The notes under the pieces are model-generated. The model worked only from the letters and a program-made list of their open reading frames with translations. It was not told where the DNA came from and made no database searches. A program made the position numbers and the translations under genes. From positions 1-31,891 of the IMG/VR virus record IMGVR_UViG_3300042731_000820: DNA of 31,891 nt. One strand, given 5' to 3'. Of the stretch, positions 4,016 to 23,669 are shown one piece after another. The first letter of the stretch is position 1, and every line of letters starts with the position of its first letter. The DNA is from a virus.

Positions 4016-5003
4016 GTTCTTCACCGAAAAAGATATGGTGCCAACCGACGTTCCAATGGTGAACGTCGCGTTGTCCGGTTCGGTTAATGGTGGTATCGCA
4101 CCCGGCCTCACGGTTCTTGCGGGGCCTTCTAAACACTTCAAGACATCATTCGCGCTACTCATGGCGGGTGCATACTTGAACGCAAAACCAGAGGCGGTTG
4201 TCCTCTTCTATGATTCGGAGTTCGGTTCTCCGCAGTCATACTTCGAGCAGTTCGGTGTCGACACTGACCGTGTCCTACACACACCGATCGCAAATGTCGA
4301 AGAACTCAAGTTCGATCTGATTAACCAATTGGAAGAACTCGACCGTGACGATGACGTGATGATCATCATTGACTCGATCGGTAACCTCGCGTCTAAGAAA
4401 GAACTAGAGGACGCATTGAATGAGAAGGGTGTCGCAGACATGTCTCGTGCGAAGGCACTGAAGGGTCTGTTCCGTATGACCACACCTTACTTGACGATGA
4501 AGAACATTCCGTTGGTTGCGATCAACCACACATACAAAGAGATCGGTCTGTTTCCAAAAGATATCGTCGGTGGTGGTACAGGTATCTACTACTCTGCGGA
4601 CAACATTTGGATTCTGGGTCGTCAACAAGAGAAGCAAGGTACTGAGGTTGTTGGATACAACTTCGTCATCAACGTAGAGAAGTCCCGTTATGTCAAAGAG
4701 AAGTCAAAGATTCCGATCGGAGTTTCGTGGGAAGGGGGTGTTCAGAAGTATAGTGGTCTTCTCGATGTCGCTCTTGCTGGTGGTTATGTTGCTAAGCCTT
4801 CTAACGGTTGGTATCAAAAAGTTGACACAACTACAGGCGAACTCGTTGGGACTAAAGTACGAACAAAGGACACCCTAGACGCCGAGTTCTGGGAACCTAT
4901 TTTTGAAACAACTAACTTTGCAGACTTCTTGGAGAAGACCTACAAGATCGGTTACTCCAGTGAGGTCGATGCGGAATTGATTGCTGAATTGGAGGAAGCA
5001 TAA
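3948..5003 (+). CDS. uvsX: UvsX RecA-like recombinase
   Basis: Phage strand-exchange protein that drives recombination-dependent replication and repair. The 351 residues include Walker A GPSKHFKTS (59-67, Lys65) and the Walker B strand VMIIID (137-142), followed by the SIGNLASKKE segment of the T4 UvsX family. A GGTGIYYSADNIW segment lies in the DNA-binding loop region. GGAGGA eight bases before the ATG at 3948 fixes the start, although this puts the first 68 bases inside the upstream gene. The stop shares one base with the next start. The neighbouring helicase and primase-like gene make a core replication block. Confidence 0.95.
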   Translation: MSIMDKLKKNSKIKETATLSTSKFFTEKDMVPTDVPMVNVALSGSVNGGIAPGLTVLAGPSKHFKTSFALLMAGAYLNAKPEAVVLFYDSEFGSPQSYFEQFGVDTDRVLHTPIANVEELKFDLINQLEELDRDDDVMIIIDSIGNLASKKELEDALNEKGVADMSRAKALKGLFRMTTPYLTMKNIPLVAINHTYKEIGLFPKDIVGGGTGIYYSADNIWILGRQQEKQGTEVVGYNFVINVEKSRYVKEKSKIPIGVSWEGGVQKYSGLLDVALAGGYVAKPSNGWYQKVDTTTGELVGTKVRTKDTLDAEFWEPIFETTNFADFLEKTYKIGYSSEVDAELIAELEEA

Positions 5004-5365
5004 TGGATCTGGACTTAGACAAGCCATCCGAAAACTTGGATTACACCCTCGAAGCAGTATCGATCAAAGGCAGTCCCATGTGGAATGTCAGTCTTATGCG
5101 TTCTCCCTACGAGAACGTGACGATTCGATATCGCAACGTCACCATTGACGAAAGTAGTGAATCTATCAGATTTAACTTCGATGTTATTGACACACCCGAT
5201 GAATCCGTGTATAATACAGACAATATTGAGTTGCAGAGTTTTGCAGCAGATGTGTTACAGGATATTCTTGCGGAAGCCGTTTACAACAAAGGCATCCAAT
5301 CAGTAGAGGGAAAAGATGACGGAGATCAACCTACAACAGACGATTCTACGGAATCTGCTGACTAA
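5003..5365 (+). CDS. Conserved-position hypothetical protein between uvsX and helicase
   Basis: A 120-residue acidic protein with alternating hydrophobic and charged residues suggesting a small beta-rich domain (about 15-75), then a helix (about 76-97) and a disordered acidic tail. No motif I recognise. It starts with the last base of uvsX and overlaps the helicase start by 50 bases, so it is probably translationally coupled. The position suggests a replication or recombination accessory role, but nothing in the sequence proves it. It contains a full-consensus promoter at 5187-5215. Confidence 0.75.
   Translation: MDLDLDKPSENLDYTLEAVSIKGSPMWNVSLMRSPYENVTIRYRNVTIDESSESIRFNFDVIDTPDESVYNTDNIELQSFAADVLQDILAEAVYNKGIQSVEGKDDGDQPTTDDSTESAD
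5187..5215 (+). promoter_or_regulatory. Internal consensus sigma70 promoter for the helicase
   Basis: TTGACA (5187-5192), exactly 17 nt, TATAAT (5210-5215): twelve of twelve consensus bases, inside the gene upstream of the helicase. The predicted start is near 5222, about 94 nt before the helicase ATG. A perfect match is unlikely by chance, and it repeats the arrangement seen for uvsX. Confidence 0.75.
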
Positions 5366-6710
5366 CGATCCATACACGAGGAAGGTCGCCGCTTTCCTCA
5401 CACCGGATTACTTTGAGGGGACGTACCAGTCCCTTCTCAAAGAGACACTCAAATACATCGGGAAGTTCAATCGCCTACCGACACTGGAGGCATTCAAGAT
5501 TGAGATTGATGAGAACGATCGTCTACCGGACGAACAGTATCGTCACGCGATGGAGATCCTTCCCGACATCTTCACACACGCCGATGAAGACATGGACTGG
5601 CTGGTCGAGAAGACTGAGAAGTTCTGTCAGGATCGCGCAGTATTCAATGCGGTCATGGAGTCGATCTCTATCATTGACGGCAAACACCAGACCCTCAGTA
5701 AGAACGCGATCCCAGACGTATTGACTAAGGCATTGTCTGTGTCGTTCGATACGAACATCGGTCACGACTACCTTGAGAACTCTGACGCACGATTTGACTT
5801 CTATCACCTAGAAGAGGAACGGATCCCGTTCGACCTTGATTACTTCAATCGAGTCACTAAGGGTGGTCTACCTAACAAGACTCTGAACATCGCGCTCGCG
5901 GGTACGGGCGTGGGTAAGTCTCTGTTTATGTGCCACTCCGCCGCAGGTGCGTTAAGTGCAGGTAAGAACGTTCTATACCTCACGATGGAAATGTCCGAAG
6001 AACGTATCGCGGAACGTATCGACGCGAACCTACTTAACGTGCCGATGGATCAACTCGAACACTTGAGTAAACCAATGTTCGATGACCGCGTTTCAAGAGT
6101 CAAGGGTAAGACCGAAGGTAAACTGATCATCAAGGAATATCCAACAGGTAGCGCACACGCGAATCATTTCCGTGCGTTGTTTAACGAACTCAAACTAAAG
6201 AAACAGTTTGTCCCCGATATCATCTATATCGATTATCTCAACATCTGCGCGAGTGCGCGTATGAAAGGAATGGGCGGTGCTATTAACTCGTATTCGTATA
6301 TCAAGTCTATTGCTGAAGAGCTACGTGGTCTTGCCGTGGAATTCGACGTGCCGATCGTGTCTGCAACGCAGACGACTCGTTCTGGTTACACTAATGATGA
6401 CGTGGGGTTGGAAGATACGTCCGAGTCTTTTGGACTACCCGCAACCGCCGACTTCATGTTCGCACTTATCTCCAACGACGAACTCAAGGCGAACAACCAG
6501 ATCCTAGTCAAGCAGTTGAAAAACCGATATAACGATTTGAATACATATCAGAGATTTGTCGTAGGTATTGACCGTAGTAAGATGCGTCTATATGACGTTG
6601 ATCAAAATGATTCTCCCCTAAATAAAGAAGTAGATAATGGACCAGCGTTCGATAACTCTAACTCCGGTCAAAGAATTGATTCCGAAAAATTCGAAAACTT
6701 CAAATTCTAA
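5316..6710 (+). CDS. Replicative DNA helicase, gp41 / DnaB family
   Basis: ATP-driven helicase that unwinds the replication fork, usually together with a primase. The 464 residues have an N-terminal alpha-helical DnaB-type domain (about 1-110), then a RecA-like motor. The motor has Walker A GTGVGKS (196-202), the LTMEMSEERIAERI segment (helicase motif H1a, about 222-235), Walker B DIIYIDYLNI (301-310) and a Q-T-T-R sensor segment near 352-355. T4 gp41 is about 475 residues. GAGGGAAAAG before the ATG acts as ribosome site. The start lies 50 bases inside the preceding gene. Confidence 0.94.
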   Translation: MTEINLQQTILRNLLTNDPYTRKVAAFLTPDYFEGTYQSLLKETLKYIGKFNRLPTLEAFKIEIDENDRLPDEQYRHAMEILPDIFTHADEDMDWLVEKTEKFCQDRAVFNAVMESISIIDGKHQTLSKNAIPDVLTKALSVSFDTNIGHDYLENSDARFDFYHLEEERIPFDLDYFNRVTKGGLPNKTLNIALAGTGVGKSLFMCHSAAGALSAGKNVLYLTMEMSEERIAERIDANLLNVPMDQLEHLSKPMFDDRVSRVKGKTEGKLIIKEYPTGSAHANHFRALFNELKLKKQFVPDIIYIDYLNICASARMKGMGGAINSYSYIKSIAEELRGLAVEFDVPIVSATQTTRSGYTNDDVGLEDTSESFGLPATADFMFALISNDELKANNQILVKQLKNRYNDLNTYQRFVVGIDRSKMRLYDVDQNDSPLNKEVDNGPAFDNSNSGQRIDSEKFENFKF

Positions 6711-7071: not shown

Positions 7072-7742
7072 CAGAAGTGGTTATCCGTAACAAAGATATG
7101 CTGGAGGTTCTCAACGGGTTCTCCGAAGAGATGCTATCCAAGCCGTCGTATAACGACGAAAAGTACTGGACTTATCACGAGAGAAAGGATATTGACTTGG
7201 GGTCTTACTACACCTCACGTGAGTATCTGTTAGAATGTTTATCTCGTGACGAGCTAGTTGGCCCGCCGGATCGGTACTTCGCACAACCGATTTCGAAAAT
7301 GGTGCGAGAAGACAAGGAGATGTGGGGAGATTTCATGCAGAAGGTCAAGTATGACTTTGCGGCAGAACTTGGCGCTCATACTTCTGCATTACTCTCCTAC
7401 TATCCGCCAGGCGGGTTCGTGGGTTGGCATACTAACTTTGATGCCAACGCATATCAGGTTTTGTTTACGTGGTCAGAGACCGGAGAAGGTTTCTTCGAAT
7501 ACTACGACAAACAAAAAGACGAAATCATCAAGATCGAAGATGTGCCTGGCTGGCAATGCAGACACTACTACTTCGGTGCGGGAGATGAACCGGATCTACA
7601 CTGCTGGCACGCTGCATACACAGAGTGTCAACGCATCACACTTGCATACAAGTTTGTTAACAACGGTAGTATCCGCAATCCAGAAGACGCACAAGCGCGT
7701 CAACTGAGAGACTTATTAATCGAAGACATCGAGACAGAGTAA
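7068..7742 (+). CDS. 2-oxoglutarate/Fe(II) oxygenase-like protein with altered metal triad
   Basis: 224 residues. The central part has a double-stranded beta-helix look: YYPPGGFVGWHTN (111-123), VLFTWSE, a GxG turn, then LHCWHAAYTECQRITL (177-192) with candidate distal His178/His181 and Arg189. In active 2OG oxygenases the first motif is H-x-D/E. Here it is H121-T-N123, with an Asp two residues further on (D125). The protein may bind metal differently, act as a non-hydroxylating variant, or be inactive. From memory, marine myoviruses carry related proteins, often annotated as 2OG-Fe(II) oxygenases. It overlaps its neighbours by four bases upstream and one base downstream, where it meets iscU. 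Confidence 0.65.
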   Translation: MTEVVIRNKDMLEVLNGFSEEMLSKPSYNDEKYWTYHERKDIDLGSYYTSREYLLECLSRDELVGPPDRYFAQPISKMVREDKEMWGDFMQKVKYDFAAELGAHTSALLSYYPPGGFVGWHTNFDANAYQVLFTWSETGEGFFEYYDKQKDEIIKIEDVPGWQCRHYYFGAGDEPDLHCWHAAYTECQRITLAYKFVNNGSIRNPEDAQARQLRDLLIEDIETE

Positions 7743-8116
7743 TGTATTCTGACAAGGTTTTAGACCACTACGAGAACCCACGCAACGTGGGTAAGATGGA
7801 CAGGGAAGACGACAACGTCGGAACTGGTATGGTGGGCGCACCCGCGTGTGGTGACGTGATGCAACTACAGATCCTTGTCGATGAAATCGGAGTAATCCAA
7901 GATGCGAAATTCAAGACTTATGGTTGCGGTAGTGCTATTGCTTCTAGTTCTTTACTCACCGAGTGGGTCAAAGGGAAAACACTTGAAGAAGCCGGGAATA
8001 TCCGTAATACAGATATCGCAAACGAACTCGCACTACCACCAGTAAAAATCCATTGCAGTGTACTCGCGGAAGACGCGATCAAAGCTGCTATCAAAGACTA
8101 TAAAGAGAAAAACTAA
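7742..8116 (+). CDS. iscU: Iron-sulfur cluster assembly scaffold IscU
   Basis: IscU holds nascent [2Fe-2S]/[4Fe-4S] clusters made with sulfur from IscS and hands them to client proteins with HscA/HscB. The 124 residues are complete and closely resemble enterobacterial IscU as I remember it. The cluster ligands C36 (PACGD), D38, C62 (YGCGSA), H104 and C105 are all present, as is the HscA-recognition motif LPPVK (98-102). The phage protein should therefore work with host IscS and HscA. No iscS, iscA, hscA or fdx lies beside it. It is the fourth gene of a tightly overlapped run after the helicase (TAATG junctions on both sides), so it is probably expressed with replication genes. Likely acquired from a gammaproteobacterial host. 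Confidence 0.96.
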   Translation: MYSDKVLDHYENPRNVGKMDREDDNVGTGMVGAPACGDVMQLQILVDEIGVIQDAKFKTYGCGSAIASSSLLTEWVKGKTLEEAGNIRNTDIANELALPPVKIHCSVLAEDAIKAAIKDYKEKN

Positions 8117-8904
8117 TGTTATTGACAGCAGGATGCAGTTTCGTCTGGGGAGACGAACTGGAAGGTTTTGATAATGACCCACCCACTCACTGGCCGTTGA
8201 CTTTCACCCACCGATTAGCAGAAAAACTAGGTGTCGAATATGCGAACCGTGGTGTCTGTGGTGCGTGTAACGACAAGATTTTTCGTGAGGTGACAGACTA
8301 CCTTCACGCAAACCCAAATAAGGTCACTCACATGGTCGTCATGTGGTCCGCACTTCAACGCAAAGAGGTTGTGGAGTATATGCCAAAAAAACGTCAGGTG
8401 AAGATCGGTCGACAGCAAAACGTTACTCAGTTTTCTTCGTTGCGAACCGAGCTTATCTACAACGACCAGAAAAGAAGATTGTGGAGAGAGTGGTATGATG
8501 AAGCATATGACTCCAAGACCGATATCATGCATATGATGGTGATGATGAAGAATATGGAAGTCATCGCCCGAGCAGCAGGCATTAAGTTGGTGCAAGGGAT
8601 GTTTCACAAGAGAAATTGGTCTAACATCTTATCCGTACTGACGGACAAAGTCCCAGACGAAAACGGATTCGATGTCCTACCTTTTGACTCTAGGATCGAC
8701 AACATCCCAGAATACAAGCAGTGGTTGAAGGATGCGTTAGGGTCTCTTGATGATAACAGTCGTGTGGGTATGGGTCGCGGTAAAGACCTGTTCACTTTGT
8801 GTCTCGAACTTGATGACATGAAACCATTCGGACACCCAGGCGAGAAAACTCAGGTAGTATTCACAGACTTCCTATACGAAAAGTTCATTGACATGGACGC
8901 ATAG
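8116..8904 (+). CDS. SGNH/GDSL hydrolase-like protein
   Basis: 262 residues. The N-terminus LLTAGCSFVWGDEL has the G-x-S-F block I arrangement with candidate nucleophile Ser8. A second block, NRGVCGACNDKI (about 40-51), carries the Gly and Asn of SGNH hydrolases, and VVMWSALQRKE (about 74-84) resembles block III. A C-terminal His lies in the FGHPGEKTQ segment where the catalytic Asp-x-x-His might be. Such proteins act on esters of sugars or lipids, so this one could trim acetyl groups from surface glycans. It starts on the last base of iscU. The promoter of the next unit overlaps its 3' end. Confidence 0.65.
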   Translation: MLLTAGCSFVWGDELEGFDNDPPTHWPLTFTHRLAEKLGVEYANRGVCGACNDKIFREVTDYLHANPNKVTHMVVMWSALQRKEVVEYMPKKRQVKIGRQQNVTQFSSLRTELIYNDQKRRLWREWYDEAYDSKTDIMHMMVMMKNMEVIARAAGIKLVQGMFHKRNWSNILSVLTDKVPDENGFDVLPFDSRIDNIPEYKQWLKDALGSLDDNSRVGMGRGKDLFTLCLELDDMKPFGHPGEKTQVVFTDFLYEKFIDMDA

Positions 8905-8916
8905 TTGTAGTATACT
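8888..8916 (+). promoter_or_regulatory. sigma70-type promoter for the 8953-10004 unit
   Basis: TTGACA (8888-8893), 17 nt, TATACT (8911-8916), overlapping the end of the SGNH-like gene. Predicted start near 8923. The leader of about 30 nt carries GAGG at 8942-8945 before the GTG start at 8953. Confidence 0.75.
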
Positions 8917-8952
8917 GTCCCTCATAAATTAGTAAACCAATGAGGTAAAACA

Positions 8953-9177
8953 GTGCCCTACATCGATGTATTCGTAGACGACGATCAGTTCGATCGAATC
9001 ATAGTTGAAGAAATAGACTTCGCATTGTCCACCGACAAGGATGTCGAGATGGATCCAGAAATGCGTCGTTCCATGATGATGGTGAGAAACTATTTCTGTG
9101 CCAAACCAGAGATGACCCAACGGTCATTCCCGTTCATGTATACTGAAGAGGAGATGGATAATGTCCTACAAAGATAA
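8953..9177 (+). CDS. Small acidic hypothetical protein
   Basis: 74 residues starting at GTG, supported by GAGG eight bases upstream and a good promoter. It is strongly acidic in its first half (VDDDQFDRIIVEEIDF) and rich in Met in the middle. No recognised motif. The small size and early-type promoter are typical of phage host-takeover proteins, but this is only context. Confidence 0.65.
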   Translation: MPYIDVFVDDDQFDRIIVEEIDFALSTDKDVEMDPEMRRSMMMVRNYFCAKPEMTQRSFPFMYTEEEMDNVLQR

Positions 9178-9295
9178 TATTGTTGAGGAGTACGGATTCC
9201 TTGTGAAGAAGTGGGGAGAGAACCCACGTTCGAAGTACAAGCGTGAACACCTCGCAAAACTGCGTAGATACATGCTTCGAGCCATATTCAAGTAA
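9161..9295 (+). CDS. Very small basic protein
   Basis: 44 residues, ATG at 9161, TAA at 9293-9295. GAGGAG followed by GATGG lies just upstream as ribosome site. It begins inside the previous gene (17-base overlap), and its stop TAATG contains the start of the wall hydrolase. Lys/Arg-rich, predicted helical. No known function. The coupling on both sides supports it as real. Confidence 0.55.
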   Translation: MSYKDNIVEEYGFLVKKWGENPRSKYKREHLAKLRRYMLRAIFK

Positions 9296-9777
9296 TGGTT
9301 CGTTGGTTAGCCGTCCTGTTCGTGGTAGGTATAACGTCCTACGCATACGCACAAGAAGAAAGGGCGAAGTCTGAGATCGAATGCCTTGCGATGAATATCT
9401 ATCACGAGGCGCGATCTGAGAGTCTTGCAGGACAATATGCGGTTGCGGACGTTGTTCTCAATCGCGTAGAGTCCCGTCTCTATCCCGACAGTATTTGTGA
9501 TGTTGTGTTTCAATCGGTGACTTGGGAGGGTGTCCCAGTTCGGGACAAGTGCCAGTTTAGTTGGTACTGCGACGGTAGGTCGGATCATCCCACTGAGGTC
9601 GACTCGTGGTTGCGATCGATCACTGTTGCGGTCAACATCCTACACAAAAATCAGTTCAGAGGACTAACAGAAAGTGCGACCCACTACCACACCGACTATG
9701 TCAGCCCGACTTGGAATAAGTCTATGGATTACATTGGTCGTATCGGAAATCACCTATTTTATCTGGAGACACGATGA
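9295..9777 (+). CDS. Exported cell-wall hydrolase, SleB family (hydrolase_2)
   Basis: 160 residues. Residues 1-19 form a Sec signal peptide (MVRWLAVLFVVGITSYAYA, cleavage before QEE). The mature part has the SleB-type signature CLAMNIYHEARSESLAGQYA (30-49) with candidate catalytic Glu38, followed by VLNRVES and CQFSWYCDG. Members cleave peptidoglycan and are used by some phages as lysins. The signal peptide would let it reach the periplasm without a holin, or it could be a signal-arrest lysin; the sequence alone does not decide. The start overlaps the upstream stop (TAATG). Confidence 0.85.
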   Translation: MVRWLAVLFVVGITSYAYAQEERAKSEIECLAMNIYHEARSESLAGQYAVADVVLNRVESRLYPDSICDVVFQSVTWEGVPVRDKCQFSWYCDGRSDHPTEVDSWLRSITVAVNILHKNQFRGLTESATHYHTDYVSPTWNKSMDYIGRIGNHLFYLETR

Positions 9778-10004
9778 TTTTAGAATGCTTGATGTGTTTG
9801 TCACTGGAATCTGATATTCCCTATATACCTAAAGAAACAAAAATACAGCGCATTGTGCGCGAGATGTTTGAAGACTCCTATTCAGAGAAGAAGTCGTTTC
9901 TCAAAGTACGCAAGGTCGTAGTACCGATCGATTCGCGTACAGATTTTGTCGTGAGTGTTAAACGAAAACAGTTTGCCACCGTTGTTTATTATTTCGATAT
10001 CTGA
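9774..10004 (+). CDS. Hypothetical protein downstream of the wall hydrolase
   Basis: 76 residues starting at ATG 9774, four bases inside the hydrolase gene. GGAG lies seven bases upstream. A hydrophobic N-terminus with two Cys is followed by a basic region and a beta-rich C-terminus (FVVSVKRKQFATVVYYF). No recognised family. It could be a lysis accessory by position, but no membrane helix is convincing. Confidence 0.5.
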   Translation: MILECLMCLSLESDIPYIPKETKIQRIVREMFEDSYSEKKSFLKVRKVVVPIDSRTDFVVSVKRKQFATVVYYFDI

Positions 10005-10045
10005 TATAATTAACTATTGACAAATCAATCATTCAGAGGTATAAT
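9982..10045 (+). promoter_or_regulatory. Tandem sigma70 promoters for the isocitrate-lyase operon
   Basis: The downstream promoter is TTGACA (10017-10022), 17 nt, TATAAT (10040-10045), with a start near 10052, only about 5 nt before the ATG at 10057. A weaker upstream promoter is TTGTTT (9982-9987), 17 nt, TATAAT (10005-10010), which would give a leader of about 40 nt. Together they drive the 84-residue gene, tRNA-Glu and, as no terminator is visible, the isocitrate lyase. Confidence 0.75.
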
Positions 10046-10408: not shown

Positions 10409-10427
10409 CATACAATTGGAATTTATT

Positions 10428-11669
10428 ATGAAAAAGCGTGACTACTCACCCGAACAGGTATACCGTCTACAAGGTACCGTACAAATCGATCACACCCTCG
10501 CAAAGATGGGTGCTAGGAAATTACGCGAACTGTTCGAAGAACATGAGTACATCAATACATTTGGAGCATACAATGGCCAACAAGCAGTCCAACACGTCAA
10601 GGCAGGACTCAAAGCAATCTATCTCTCAGGATGGCAGGTTGCCGCATCCGCCAACTCGCACAACGAAGTTTATCCAGATCAGTCTCTTTATGCTGTTGAT
10701 AGCGTTCCCAATGTTGTCCGCAGTATCAATAATGCATTTAGAAGACAAGACCAAATCGAATATTTGGAATCTGGAAACGGGTTTGAATTTGCCCCTATTA
10801 TTGCCGATGCTGAAGCAGGATTCGGAGGAGTTCTAAATGCGTATGAACTTGCAAGAAACCTTATCGAAGCAGGTGCTGCCGCTGTTCACTTTGAAGACCA
10901 AGTTGCTGCCGAAAAGAAGTGCGGACACCTTGGAGGAAAAGTTCTTATTCCTACTAGTCAGGCTATACGCAATCTTAACGCCGCTCGCCTTGCTAGTGAC
11001 GTTGCTCGCACCGATACTGTTGTTATCGCTCGCACTGACGCCGAGTCTGCGAAACTAATCTCAAGCAACATTTCAGACATCGACAAACCATTCATCAAGA
11101 GAGTCGCGCAGGGCACTGCGGGATCTATTCAATGTCGTACACAAGAAGGGTTCTACCAACTACAAGAAGGTCGTGGGTTGGAGTTCGGTTGTGTGCGCGG
11201 TCAGGCATACGCAGAATACGCAGACCTCGTTTGGTGCGAGACATCGACACCAGACTTGAAGGATGCGAAGCGTTTCGCCGATGCAGTTAAAGGTGCAGTT
11301 CCAGACGCGATGCTCGCGTACAACTGTTCACCATCATTCAACTGGCGCAAGTCAATCCCCGGCGATCAAGAACTAAAAGAGTTCCAGAGAGAACTAGGTC
11401 GCATGGGATTCAAGTTCCAGTTTATAACACTTGCTGGTTTCCACCAGACTAACTATGCAGTCTTTGATTTCGCAAACCGATACAAAGATGAGGGGATGTA
11501 TGCTTACAGTTTATTACAGGAGGCAGAGTTCGATGCAGAAGAGCGCGGATACACCGGAGCAAAACACCAAAGAGAGGTTGGAGTCGGCTACTTTGACGCG
11601 ATTACGACAACTCTGGGTTCTTCTTCGACCGCAGCGATGGCGGGTTCAACCGAAGAAGACCAGTTCTAA
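10428..11669 (+). CDS. aceA: Isocitrate lyase
   Basis: Splits isocitrate into glyoxylate and succinate, the first step of the glyoxylate shunt, which bypasses the CO2-releasing steps of the TCA cycle. The 413 residues (ATG 10428, GGA seven bases upstream) contain every landmark. These are SGWQVAASAN (about 65-74), FAPIIADAEAGFGG, the catalytic KKCGHLGGKVL with K163-K164-C165-G-H167, VIARTDAES, LVWCETSTPDL, YNCSPSFNW, KFQFITLAGFH and the C-terminal GSTEEDQF lid. E. coli AceA is 434 residues, so it is full length and looks catalytically intact. An in-frame TTG at 10416 is a possible alternative start. The middle (about 10690-11060) uses more T-ending codons such as GCT and CTT than its ends. 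No malate synthase is in the window, so the host AceB/GlcB would have to use the glyoxylate. Confidence 0.97.
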   Translation: MKKRDYSPEQVYRLQGTVQIDHTLAKMGARKLRELFEEHEYINTFGAYNGQQAVQHVKAGLKAIYLSGWQVAASANSHNEVYPDQSLYAVDSVPNVVRSINNAFRRQDQIEYLESGNGFEFAPIIADAEAGFGGVLNAYELARNLIEAGAAAVHFEDQVAAEKKCGHLGGKVLIPTSQAIRNLNAARLASDVARTDTVVIARTDAESAKLISSNISDIDKPFIKRVAQGTAGSIQCRTQEGFYQLQEGRGLEFGCVRGQAYAEYADLVWCETSTPDLKDAKRFADAVKGAVPDAMLAYNCSPSFNWRKSIPGDQELKEFQRELGRMGFKFQFITLAGFHQTNYAVFDFANRYKDEGMYAYSLLQEAEFDAEERGYTGAKHQREVGVGYFDAITTTLGSSSTAAMAGSTEEDQF

Positions 11670-17260: not shown

Positions 17261-17488
17261 ATGAGATTTCTTTTAGTTGTAGTATTGACAGTGGTAGCAA
17301 GCTGTAGTACAATGGGAGAACAAGTGGATAAAGGTCTCTGTCTCAAGTGGACTACCTTTACCTCTGAGAGACTAGAATGTGCCGGTGGTCGTGGTGTTGC
17401 GCAACAAGTTTGCGTAGTGCGAGAAATACAAATGGCGCACTGTTTAGTTTGGGAATGGCCAGAAGGTCGTCCGGAGGGTGAATCGTGA
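17261..17488 (+). CDS. Small Cys-rich lipoprotein (paralog 1)
   Basis: 75 residues. A lipoprotein signal peptide ends in VVASC, with Cys15 as the lipid-attachment site. The mature part has a C-L-x-W...T...C......C.......C-x-V-x-x-x-P-x-G-x-P layout shared with the next gene, so the two are tandem duplicates. GAGAG precedes the ATG. It should be anchored in the envelope. The role is unknown: superinfection exclusion or a lysis accessory is possible, but not shown. Confidence 0.75.
   Translation: MRFLLVVVLTVVASCSTMGEQVDKGLCLKWTTFTSERLECAGGRGVAQQVCVVREIQMAHCLVWEWPEGRPEGES
17285..17313 (+). promoter_or_regulatory. Possible promoter inside the first lipoprotein gene
   Basis: TTGACA (17285-17290), 17 nt, TACAAT (17308-17313). 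It could express the second lipoprotein and the genes after it. The hydrophobic signal-peptide codons here make such a match easier by chance, so I keep it tentative. Confidence 0.4.
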
Positions 17489-20177: not shown

Positions 20178-20265
20178 GGTGGGCTGGCTGAGCGGTCGAA
20201 AGCGGCGGTCTTGAAAACCGTTGAACCGAGAGGTTCCGTAGGTTCGAATCCTACGCCCACCGCCA
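20178..20265 (+). tRNA. tRNA-Ser (anticodon TGA)
   Basis: An 88-nt class II tRNA. The acceptor GGTGGGC pairs with GCCCACC, the anticodon loop is CTTGAAA, there is a long variable arm (GAACCGAGAGGTTC), the T-arm is GTAGG-TTCGAAT-CCTAC, and CCA is encoded. Confidence 0.94.
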
Positions 20266-20310: not shown

Positions 20311-20991
20311 ATGAAATCTTTCAAAACATTCCTAGACGAAGGTGTCAACGATCCAGCAATCTTCAAGGCAATTTTCCTTGCAGGTGGGCCAGGCTCTGGT
20401 AAGTCATTCATCGTCGGTAAAACCGGACTGACCTCTATGGGTTACAAGGTCGTCAACTCTGACGACGCATTCGAAGCTGCCATGAAGAAGGCAGGTATGG
20501 AGATGGACCCAGAAAACATCTTCTCTGTGAAGGGTCAGGAAATCCGTGGTAAGGCAAAGGCACTTACAGGTAAACGACAGGCACGTTACATCGAAGGTCG
20601 TTTAGGACTAGTCATTGATGGTACAGGTAAAGACCCAGACAAGATTGTGACTCAAGCAAGACAACTGATCAAGTTAGGTTATGATGTCGCAATGGTCTTC
20701 GTAAACACCGATTTAGAAACTGCTATCAAACGTGATGCCGCTCGTAAGAGAACTATCGGTGAAGTCGAAGCGACTAAGTATTGGAAAGAAGTGCAACGCA
20801 ATATCGGTCGTTACCAACAGTTGTTTGGTAAGAACAATTTCCTAGTAGTCGACAACTCAGAAGGTAAGGACTACCAAGCAGAGACCCTACGCGCATATCG
20901 TGATGCGACAAAATTCACTAACAAGGCACCAGACAATCCGAAGGCGCAAAAGTGGATTGCGGACGAAAAAGCGAAAGCAAAAAGGTCTTGA
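20311..20991 (+). CDS. P-loop kinase with putative capsid-targeting N-terminus
   Basis: 226 residues. FLAGGPGSGKSFIV (22-35) is a Walker A motif. VVNSDDAFEA (about 48-57) and the LVIDGTGKDPDKI segment match zeta-toxin/polynucleotide-kinase-like P-loop kinases, and DAARKRT supplies likely lid arginines. The substrate is unknown. The first eleven residues MKSFKTFLDEG resemble the T4 internal-protein capsid-targeting sequence MKTYQEFIAEA, with L-x-E before a predicted prohead-protease cut. A TATAAATA late promoter fits a packaged protein. The promoter of the peroxidase gene overlaps its last codons. Confidence 0.8.
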   Translation: MKSFKTFLDEGVNDPAIFKAIFLAGGPGSGKSFIVGKTGLTSMGYKVVNSDDAFEAAMKKAGMEMDPENIFSVKGQEIRGKAKALTGKRQARYIEGRLGLVIDGTGKDPDKIVTQARQLIKLGYDVAMVFVNTDLETAIKRDAARKRTIGEVEATKYWKEVQRNIGRYQQLFGKNNFLVVDNSEGKDYQAETLRAYRDATKFTNKAPDNPKAQKWIADEKAKAKRS

Positions 20992-21016
20992 CACCCCCCA
21001 CACACTGTAGTATAAT
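20988..21016 (+). promoter_or_regulatory. Consensus sigma70 promoter for the peroxidase gene
   Basis: TTGACA (20988-20993), 17 nt, TATAAT (21011-21016): twelve of twelve bases. Predicted start near 21023 with a leader of about 37 nt that contains GAGAGG (21044-21049). The host-type promoter contrasts with the late promoter of the gene just upstream, so the peroxidase is likely made early. Confidence 0.85.
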
Positions 21017-21059
21017 TCCTCTCGAAACTTGAAATAGAGTATTGAGAGGCTCTTAAATT

Positions 21060-22481
21060 ATGCAACGCTTACTTACTGTAGCGGTATCTAGTGCACTTAT
21101 CAGTGCGTGTTCTGGTGGAGGTTCTGACACCCCACCGCCCGTCGTGACAGACCCTGTCACATCCACACCCGTAACGATACCTGTCGACCCCGCAGTCGAG
21201 GCACGTGAAAATCTACTCACGTTACTTGACTCTACGTCACCGACAGGTACTTACGAGGCATACATCCTACCCGCAAGTGATGACTTCGACAACATCCCGC
21301 AGGATCCCAGCAATGAGATCACCGCAGAGAAGGTCGCACTGGGTAAGTTAATCTACCACGAGACTGGTATCACTGAAGGTGACATCGAGTCTAGTGAAGG
21401 TACGTTCTCGTGCTCGTCTTGTCACAATGCGCAGAACGGATTCAAGTCTGGTATCCGTCAGGGTATCGGTGAAGGCGGTATCGGTTTCGATCACCGTATG
21501 GTTATGGAAGGTGTTGACCTTGCAGACGTTGATGTCCAACCCGTGACATCTCCTACAGTTCTAAACACTGCGTTCCAAGAGGTCATGTTGTGGAACGGTC
21601 AGTTCGGTAACGAGATCGGTGGTGTGGTCAACGTGGGTATCGATCCCGACCGTCACTTCACAGAAGGTACACCGAAGGAAGCGAACCTACGTAACCTGTC
21701 CGGACTAGAGACTCAGGCAGTCGCAGGTCTTGGTGTTCACCGTATGGGAACGGACAATCCCAATTCACTACTACGCACCAACGAGACGTATCGTCAGATG
21801 TTTGAGGACGCGTATGGTGTCGCAGAACCCGACGACATGTTAGAGGCTGCCGCACTTGCGATTGCCGCATTCGAACGGACTGTCCTATCTAACGAGGCAC
21901 CATTCCAAGAGTATCTCCGTGGAGATGAAACTGCGATGACTGAGAAACAGGTCGCAGGTGCAGAGGTGTTCTTCGGTAAGGGTAACTGCCACACGTGTCA
22001 CAACGGTGCCGCACTATCGTCACCCAAGGGTGCGATGGCAGACGATATCTTCATGACGTTGGGTTTCCACGATCTCGATATGTGGGAAGATACAATCGGT
22101 GAAGTGAATGAAGCAACACGTGAGGGACGTGGGGGATTCACTGGAGATACACTGGATAAGTTCAAGTTCAAAGTACCGCCACTTTACAATCTTATAGATA
22201 CAGAAGTATTTGGTCACGGTGCGTCGTTTGCATCTGTTGAGGATGTGGTTCGTTACAAAGTAGAAGCGATCCCACAACACCCACAAGTAGAAATTGGCGA
22301 CCTTGACTACAGGTTCACTCCTCTGGATCTAACAGAAGATGAGATCGCGAATCTCGTTGAGTTCCTAGAGGTCGGTTTGAAAGATGACAACTTGATGCGG
22401 TATGTCCCTGAGTCTTTACCCAGTGGTAACTGCCCTGTTAACAACGACGAAGTGTCGCGACAAGAGTTGGGTTGCGACTAA
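21060..22481 (+). CDS. Di-heme cytochrome c peroxidase (CcpA/MauG family) lipoprotein
   Basis: Reduces hydrogen peroxide to water with electrons from cytochrome c, or, in MauG-like members, oxidises other substrates. The 473 residues begin with a lipoprotein signal ending LISAC (Cys17), then a Thr/Pro-rich linker (about 20-45). Two heme-c attachment sites follow, C118-S-S-C-H122 and C310-H-T-C-H314, the arrangement of the two-domain di-heme family. Family stretches are SPTVLNTAFQEVMLWNGQ (about 164-181) and AAFERTVLS...F-x-x-Y-L-R-G-D. The protein would be secreted, lipid-anchored and loaded with heme by the host Ccm system. It is full length and uninterrupted. It has its own consensus promoter. 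Such an enzyme is very unusual in a phage genome. It could instead act on a redox signal or dye-like metabolite. Confidence 0.93.
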   Translation: MQRLLTVAVSSALISACSGGGSDTPPPVVTDPVTSTPVTIPVDPAVEARENLLTLLDSTSPTGTYEAYILPASDDFDNIPQDPSNEITAEKVALGKLIYHETGITEGDIESSEGTFSCSSCHNAQNGFKSGIRQGIGEGGIGFDHRMVMEGVDLADVDVQPVTSPTVLNTAFQEVMLWNGQFGNEIGGVVNVGIDPDRHFTEGTPKEANLRNLSGLETQAVAGLGVHRMGTDNPNSLLRTNETYRQMFEDAYGVAEPDDMLEAAALAIAAFERTVLSNEAPFQEYLRGDETAMTEKQVAGAEVFFGKGNCHTCHNGAALSSPKGAMADDIFMTLGFHDLDMWEDTIGEVNEATREGRGGFTGDTLDKFKFKVPPLYNLIDTEVFGHGASFASVEDVVRYKVEAIPQHPQVEIGDLDYRFTPLDLTEDEIANLVEFLEVGLKDDNLMRYVPESLPSGNCPVNNDEVSRQELGCD

Positions 22482-22712: not shown

Positions 22713-22788
22713 GGGGCTATAGCTCAGTTGGGAGAGCGCTTGATTTGCATTCAAGAGGTCGTGGGTTCGACTCCCTCTAGCTCCACCA
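22713..22788 (+). tRNA. tRNA-Ala (anticodon TGC)
   Basis: A 76-nt cloverleaf. The acceptor GGGGCTA pairs with TAGCTCC (one G-U), the anticodon loop is TTTGCAT, the T-stem is GTGGG/CTCCC (one G-T pair), and CCA is encoded. It is followed after two bases by a long palindromic element. Confidence 0.94.
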
Positions 22789-22956: not shown

Positions 22957-22985
22957 TTGACACGCAACAAAAGTTGTGGTACTAT
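22957..22985 (+). promoter_or_regulatory. sigma70-type promoter for the RecB-like nuclease
   Basis: TTGACA (22957-22962), 17 nt, TACTAT (22980-22985), one base after the T-run of the palindrome. Transcription is expected at 22992, exactly the A of the nuclease ATG, so this mRNA would be leaderless too. Confidence 0.75.
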
Positions 22986-22991
22986 TACATT

Positions 22992-23669
22992 ATGTTTGAA
23001 CACGTATTCACAGAATTAACCGAAATGAAAGCTGTCACCACTGAGAAGGGGCGACAGTACCGCACACCTGAAGGCATCGACCTTCCATCCATCACAACAG
23101 TTCTCTCGATACTGTCTCGTGAATCTATTGCAAAGTGGCGAGCTAGAGTAGGTCATGAAGAAGCGAATCGCATTTCGCATCGTGCATCATCTCGCGGGAC
23201 ACGAGTCCACGAGATCGTAGAGAAGTATATCAACAACGAGGAGAACTTTAAAGATGGATATACTCCAGATATTATTAGTAGCTTTAGTGATCTTAAGCCC
23301 ATTTTGGATAGCCGTATCGGTAGAGTATATGCACAGGAAGCCCCTCTCTACTCAAACCACTTGGGAGTGGCTGGTCGCGTCGATTGCATTGCTGAGTTTG
23401 ATGGTCGTCTTTCTGTCATTGATTTCAAGACATCTATGAAACCCAAGCGGAAGGATTGGATCACCAATTACTTTATGCAAGAGTCCGCTTACGCAATCAT
23501 GTGGGAAGAACGAACAAATCGTCCCATCACTCAACTTGTCACCATCATATCCGTAGACAACCACGAACCGCAGATCTTTGTCGAACACAGAGATACGTGG
23601 GTCCGTCCCCTACGCGAAACAATCGCACAATACAACAAAGAAAATTCTCACAGTTCCCTTGACATATAA
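22992..23669 (+). CDS. RecB/Cas4-type PD-(D/E)XK exonuclease
   Basis: 225 residues from ATG 22992. The family motifs appear in order: RGTRVHEIVE with His73, Glu116 before a strand, GRVD with D131, IDFKTS with D144 and K146, and Q163-x-x-x-Y167 (QESAY). This is the RecB/AddB/Cas4 nuclease arrangement, without a helicase part or the four Cys of a Cas4 iron-sulfur cluster. It probably trims DNA ends in phage recombination or degrades host DNA. The message appears leaderless. The gene end carries a double promoter for the next gene. No CRISPR array is present, so a spacer-acquisition role is not supported. Confidence 0.85.
   Translation: MFEHVFTELTEMKAVTTEKGRQYRTPEGIDLPSITTVLSILSRESIAKWRARVGHEEANRISHRASSRGTRVHEIVEKYINNEENFKDGYTPDIISSFSDLKPILDSRIGRVYAQEAPLYSNHLGVAGRVDCIAEFDGRLSVIDFKTSMKPKRKDWITNYFMQESAYAIMWEERTNRPITQLVTIISVDNHEPQIFVEHRDTWVRPLRETIAQYNKENSHSSLDI

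Follow-up and report, generated by a model that had tools for sequence, protein, structure and literature searches.

Why should a T4-like phage carry a gene for a protein with two c-type heme sites, and what would such a protein do for the phage? The window, which is the whole stretch of DNA analyzed here, is a 31.9-kb viral record of a T4-like myovirus. Its di-heme gene is surrounded by genes for a primase, UvsX, the DnaB helicase and an exonuclease, together with eight tRNAs. An earlier note, made from the letters of this DNA, had described the product as a phage-encoded di-heme cytochrome c peroxidase lipoprotein that would remove peroxide. We compared the gene with its phage and cellular relatives and modeled the structure of its product. 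The features discussed below are collected in the table.

Features of the di-heme locus, with positions in the window
Feature	Position	Strand	Basis or remark
tRNA-Ser, upstream flank of the conserved locus	20178..20265	+	
P-loop kinase, zeta-toxin/AAA_33-like (zeta toxin / polynucleotide kinase related), directly upstream	20311..20991	+	
Sigma-70 promoter, TTGACA-17-TATAAT	20988..21016	+	12/12 match
Shine-Dalgarno-like GAGAGG, conserved in many relatives	21044..21049	+	comparison of relatives
Predicted di-heme c-type CCP/MauG-superfamily lipoprotein, P0001	21060..22481	+	473 aa, ATG start
Predicted signal peptide with lipobox, lipidated Cys17	21060..21110	+	alignment and sequence
Heme 1 site CSSCH, residues 118-122	21411..21425	+	sequence and alignment
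E138, column of the peroxidatic-heme distal His ligand in classical bCCPs	21471..21473	+	alignment
W178, inter-heme Trp equivalent, invariant	21591..21593	+	alignment; pairs with FWDG of bCCPs
Q219, active-site Gln equivalent, invariant	21714..21716	+	alignment
H227-R228, replacing the catalytic Glu	21738..21743	+	alignment
Heme 2 site CHTCH, residues 310-314	21987..22001	+	sequence and alignment
K400, column of the heme 2 ligand: Met (bCCP) or Tyr (MauG, BthA)	22257..22259	+	alignment
tRNA-Ala, downstream flank	22713..22788	+	
T4-like phage exonuclease, downstream	22974..23669	+	93% identical in C48C1

The product has a short, hydrophobic signal with the lipobox ISAC, which ends at Cys17 and is followed by a Pro/Thr-rich linker up to about residue 45. 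Cys17, the predicted lipidated residue and the lipobox cysteine of the earlier note, is invariant in a 50-sequence alignment of phage and cellular members. Among open reading frames of at least 50 residues in the window, this is the only one with a CXXCH motif. Its two sites, one per domain, are kept in all aligned homologues (59 of 59 from phages and 54 of 54 from cells), and the coordinates previously given for the gene and for both motifs were exact. The 473-residue protein scores 90.4 bits with Pfam CCP_MauG (PF03150), for which the cut-off is 25.6 (E 2.3e-25). An AlphaFold2 model built from 49 sequences has a mean pLDDT of 87.3 and a pTM of 0.86. Foldseek matched this model best to BthA (E 9.6e-15) and then to bCCPs and MauG (TM by target 0.57-0.76, and 0.72-0.76 among the top matches). 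The family assignment of the earlier note thus stands at the level of the superfamily, and by sequence the product is a lipoprotein bound for export that has two c-type heme sites and a CCP/MauG fold. Two C-terminal cysteines, Cys458 and Cys472 (window 22431-22433 and 22473-22475), are conserved in most phage and cellular members and may form a disulfide.

We then compared the active site with that of 16 ordinary CCP-family proteins, taken from genomes of the family to which a Haliea metagenome-assembled genome (MAG) belongs and from Salmonella. In this alignment, the bCCP motif EQA..GP...EM becomes ETQA..G..VHR[ML] in the di-heme family of phages and cells, so that the catalytic Glu of the bCCP EM motif is absent from the phage protein. 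The His-Arg pair in its place is found in 59 of 59 phage members, and among cellular sequences H227 is kept in 54 of 54 and R228 in 53 of 54. Three more distant sequences (L239, L240 and L242) have the pair as well. At the second heme, the family has neither the Met that ligates the electron-transfer heme in bCCPs nor the Tyr ligand of the six-coordinate heme found in MauG, MbnH and BthA. The column is occupied by K400 (59 of 59 phage and 51 of 54 cellular sequences), and Y399 sits one residue off the MauG-type Tyr column. Position 138 is Glu or Asp throughout the family, and W178, Q219 and both heme sites are invariant among phage members. A family-specific insertion of about 30 residues lies between W178 and Q219. 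Judged by the sequence alignment, H227/R228 and K400 would point at the hemes, and we infer the true heme ligands from these positions. On two features, the catalytic Glu and the Met ligand, the protein falls outside the bCCP family proper.

The same signatures recur in a cellular subfamily that is 39-54% identical to the phage protein and is found in Alteromonadaceae, other Gammaproteobacteria and Bacteroidota (for example L034 and L051). Its members are chromosomal, are called "cytochrome c peroxidase" where annotated, and share the HR, K400, GHG and insertion signatures with the phage protein. Judged by sequence, this HR/K400/GHG subfamily is the true family of the phage protein. We found no characterized member of it.

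We favor the explanation that this is an auxiliary metabolic gene whose exported di-heme enzyme reduces periplasmic peroxide by means of the His-Arg pair, and we give it, taken as a whole, a little better than an even chance. Host sigma-70 polymerase would transcribe the gene early, the Sec system would export the protein, lipidation would follow, and the host cytochrome c maturation system would attach both hemes. The Pro/Thr-rich linker would tether the enzyme in the periplasm. Electrons from host periplasmic carriers would enter at heme 2, whose ligands are probably His314 and Lys400, and travel by way of Trp178 to heme 1. There, the His-Arg pair would stand in for the usual Glu in the reduction of H2O2 or an organic peroxide. 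The benefit would be an envelope and a respiratory chain that keep working under oxidative stress during infection. We found no further c-type cytochrome that could serve as a phage-encoded donor in the window or in the related phage C48C1, where the sole other CXXCH lies inside an HNH endonuclease.

In eukaryotic heme peroxidases, an Arg accompanies the distal His. The His-Arg pair is compatible with peroxidase chemistry, because in eukaryotic heme peroxidases a His stands where the bacterial enzymes have their Glu (PMC10094543). Many relatives of this phage also carry a peroxiredoxin gene, which speaks for a role in peroxide metabolism. Against such a role, the Glu that the phage protein has lost is essential in the enzymes that have been tested: the E277Q variant of BthA is inactive (PMC6405878), as are the Glu/Gln variants of bCCPs (PMC10094543). 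Because this residue is replaced, peroxide reduction is a plausible leading guess that homology does not secure. Of the earlier account, the phage-borne, exported, di-heme CCP/MauG lipoprotein with its own promoter is retained. Its peroxide removal cannot be kept as written, given the invariant His-Arg pair, the different position at the second heme and the missed MauG/MbnH cut-offs described below.

The loss of the catalytic Glu also raises the possibility, which we hold only tentatively, that the protein is a di-heme oxygenase or a protein- or lipid-modifying oxidase (compare MauG, RoxA and the fatty-acid di-heme enzymes of Pseudomonas) and not a peroxide scavenger. Such an enzyme might modify lipids of the host envelope, or a protein on the surface of the infected cell, and so, for example, exclude other phages. 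Superfamily members with other chemistry exist, the family has its own insertion between W178 and Q219, and the best partial NCBIfam scores point to MauG-like modifying enzymes. However, every curated MauG/MbnH cut-off is missed by far (TIGR03791, 97.3 versus 443.85 bits; TIGR04039, 106 versus 362.85 bits), and these scores, with the absent Tyr, argue against membership in MauG/MbnH. Moreover, the inter-heme Trp and the Gln are retained, as in peroxidases, and no partner gene of the kind expected for a MauG-type substrate is conserved at the phage or the cellular loci, where the phage neighbors are backbone genes. It is improbable that the protein is instead a cytochrome that serves for electron transfer or as an electron sink and itself catalyzes little. 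Two c-heme sites would suit such a carrier, and the changed ligand positions could tune their potentials, but the strict invariance of the distal-pocket residues is what one would expect of an enzyme.

Expression bears on whether peroxide reduction, or any other activity, could take place within an infection cycle. The earlier note had pointed to a twelve-of-twelve sigma-70 promoter before the gene, and this match is far above chance: the window contains five perfect sites versus 0.02 expected from shuffling. Of 60 sequences, the window among them, 31 keep the promoter (11-12 of 12 positions, spacer 17-18, 42-45 nt before the ATG), although many are near-identical and so not independent. The site is conserved, since the spacer diverges while the site is kept. 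In sequences without a promoter at that place, the di-heme gene often lies directly after a tRNA. Most perfect promoters of C48C1 belong to the replication half of its genome: 1-43 kb has seven and 43-74 kb has four, whereas the only one in 115-156 kb is antisense. The di-heme gene is probably transcribed early by host sigma-70 polymerase, because it has a perfect promoter that about half of its relatives share. Pairwise dN/dS has a median of 0.10 over 225 pairs (phage genes and the Haliea MAG copy, L031), and the gene is intact, conserved and under purifying selection. Export, lipidation and two heme attachments would all be needed within one infection cycle, and lysis could precede full export and heme loading, leaving the protein expressed but non-functional in most infections. 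The early-type promoter and the strong purifying selection argue against this scenario, which we rate as slightly less probable still than a simple electron carrier.

Phage C48C1 (OQ984149), which its record places in Kyanoviridae, has a complete, circular, T4-like genome of 156 kb whose genes include those for terminase, portal, major head protein, sheath and baseplate. Its CDS0082 (WJE87955.1, "hypothetical protein") is a 90% identical orthologue and, as in the window, lies between tRNA-Ser and tRNA-Ala. Three scans of viral contigs found about 64 loci with the di-heme family at 45-100% identity, and tblastn with C48C1 proteins showed phage neighbors at all of them, usually with the exonuclease downstream. 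An assembly chimera is ruled out by the circular genome and the syntenic contigs. The claim that the gene is phage-encoded, for which a homology search in viruses had been proposed as a check, is borne out by C48C1 and some 60 syntenic contigs. We therefore class it as an auxiliary metabolic gene of phages: in a complete genome it is flanked on either side by phage genes, its reading frame is intact and it is under selection. Although metabolic-type viral genes are sometimes host contamination, a host gene brought into the contig by misassembly or chance transduction is scarcely credible here, given the complete circular phage, the syntenic contigs, the purifying selection and the deep phage clades.

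The gene is restricted to part of the T4-like phages. Of 50,697 phage records, 961 contain a gene related to the exonuclease, but C48C1 alone has a high-identity di-heme protein. The other four matches in these records are 25-26% identical and resemble enterobacterial di-heme peroxidases; two of them come from records of bacterial genomes, and two from short records that bear a phage name but no annotation. In the exonuclease scan, the di-heme gene accompanies every exonuclease relative of at least 85% identity whose contig extends upstream. One related contig, L164 (exonuclease 81%, about 8600-10010), has neither the di-heme gene nor the tRNAs within 10 kb upstream of its exonuclease. Because it is present in close exonuclease relatives, absent from L164 and found in C48C1 alone among phage records, the di-heme gene is clade-specific and conserved in a T4-like marine phage lineage. 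L164 also offers a natural comparison, as a related phage without the gene.

The closest neighbors of the phage group in the tree are Glaciecola MAGs, and the copy in the Haliea MAG (4833-6335), downstream of a tRNA-Ser(GCT), is nested within the phage clade. A forced tree with a phage clade that excludes this copy was rejected (AU p 2e-9). The copy lies between alaS-lysC-csrA-tRNA-Ser, where csrA was read from the sequence, and an MTHFR gene. These flanks, and the presence of zero C48C1 genes, rule out a misbinned phage contig. Among 140 genomes of the family to which this MAG belongs, it alone has a full-length close match. Because the copy is nested in the phage clade, it suggests a probable transfer of the gene from phage to a Halieaceae bacterium, as seen in one MAG, and that the host of the phage lineage is likely in or near Halieaceae. 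A phage tRNA-Asp that is 98.7% identical to that of Salmonella fits a gammaproteobacterial host.

These phages carry other genes of note. An isocitrate lyase (window 10416-11669, + strand; PF00463, E 1.8e-94) has an intact KKCGH motif, is 97% identical in C48C1, occurs in many contigs of the lineage and has no PHROG; it represents a phage glyoxylate-shunt gene. An aceBA operon has been described in a T4-like marine virus (PMC5332604). A NifU N-terminal domain Fe-S scaffold protein (window 7742-8116, +) is shared with C48C1 and others. A small lipoprotein-like ORF of 75 aa (MRFLLVVVLTVVASC...; window 17261-17485, +) adjoins tRNA-Asp, and C48C1 has a similar one (L002 11783-12016). Upstream of the di-heme locus in C48C1 (CDS0064; L002 5349-5942) and many relatives is the peroxiredoxin gene, which gives these phages another gene related to peroxide but which we did not find in the window.

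The earlier note had considered such a phage enzyme uncharacterized, and our searches agree: the protein has no match in PHROG families, its model has no relative among BFVD viral structures by Foldseek, and a keyword search of open-licence papers found no report of a phage CCP/MauG enzyme and no paper on C48C1. The main text of a 2024 survey of ocean auxiliary metabolic genes does not mention peroxidase. Phage metabolic genes known so far act mostly in the cytoplasm. If the host exports this protein during infection and attaches two covalent hemes to it, the phage would control periplasmic electron flow or peroxide. The analysis also brings to light a large uncharacterized branch of the CCP/MauG superfamily whose active site is rewired. 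For a T4-like lineage, it points to Halieaceae or their relatives as the likely hosts, and it reveals a probable phage-to-bacterium transfer.

Phage peroxiredoxin (phrog_2281) and Shemin-pathway genes (PMC11480375) are likewise redox-related auxiliary genes of aquatic phages, but they encode cytoplasmic enzymes, none of them an exported c-type di-heme enzyme. BthA (6e1c), the best structural match, and MauG (3l4m) have the same fold and heme order as the phage protein, and MauG shares its inter-heme Trp. In contrast, Glu277/Glu113 and Tyr463/Tyr294 of BthA/MauG are not conserved, and no MauG-type substrate gene adjoins the phage gene. With bCCPs (Shewanella BccP 3o5c, P. nautica 1nml and N. 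gonorrhoeae 6fu3), the phage protein has in common the fold (TM by target 0.66-0.76), two CXXCH motifs, the inter-heme Trp and the active-site Gln. It differs in having His-Arg for the catalytic Glu, Lys for the Met that ligates the electron-transfer heme and Glu for the distal His at the peroxidatic heme, and in its insertion of about 30 residues and its lipoprotein signal. It is conceivable, though we would not yet bet on it, that these differences define a new class of di-heme enzyme, in which a bacterial-CCP fold with a plant/yeast-like His-Arg distal pair and a His/Lys second heme would remodel periplasmic redox early in infection. What is new here is that a known superfamily has a redesigned branch borne by phages.
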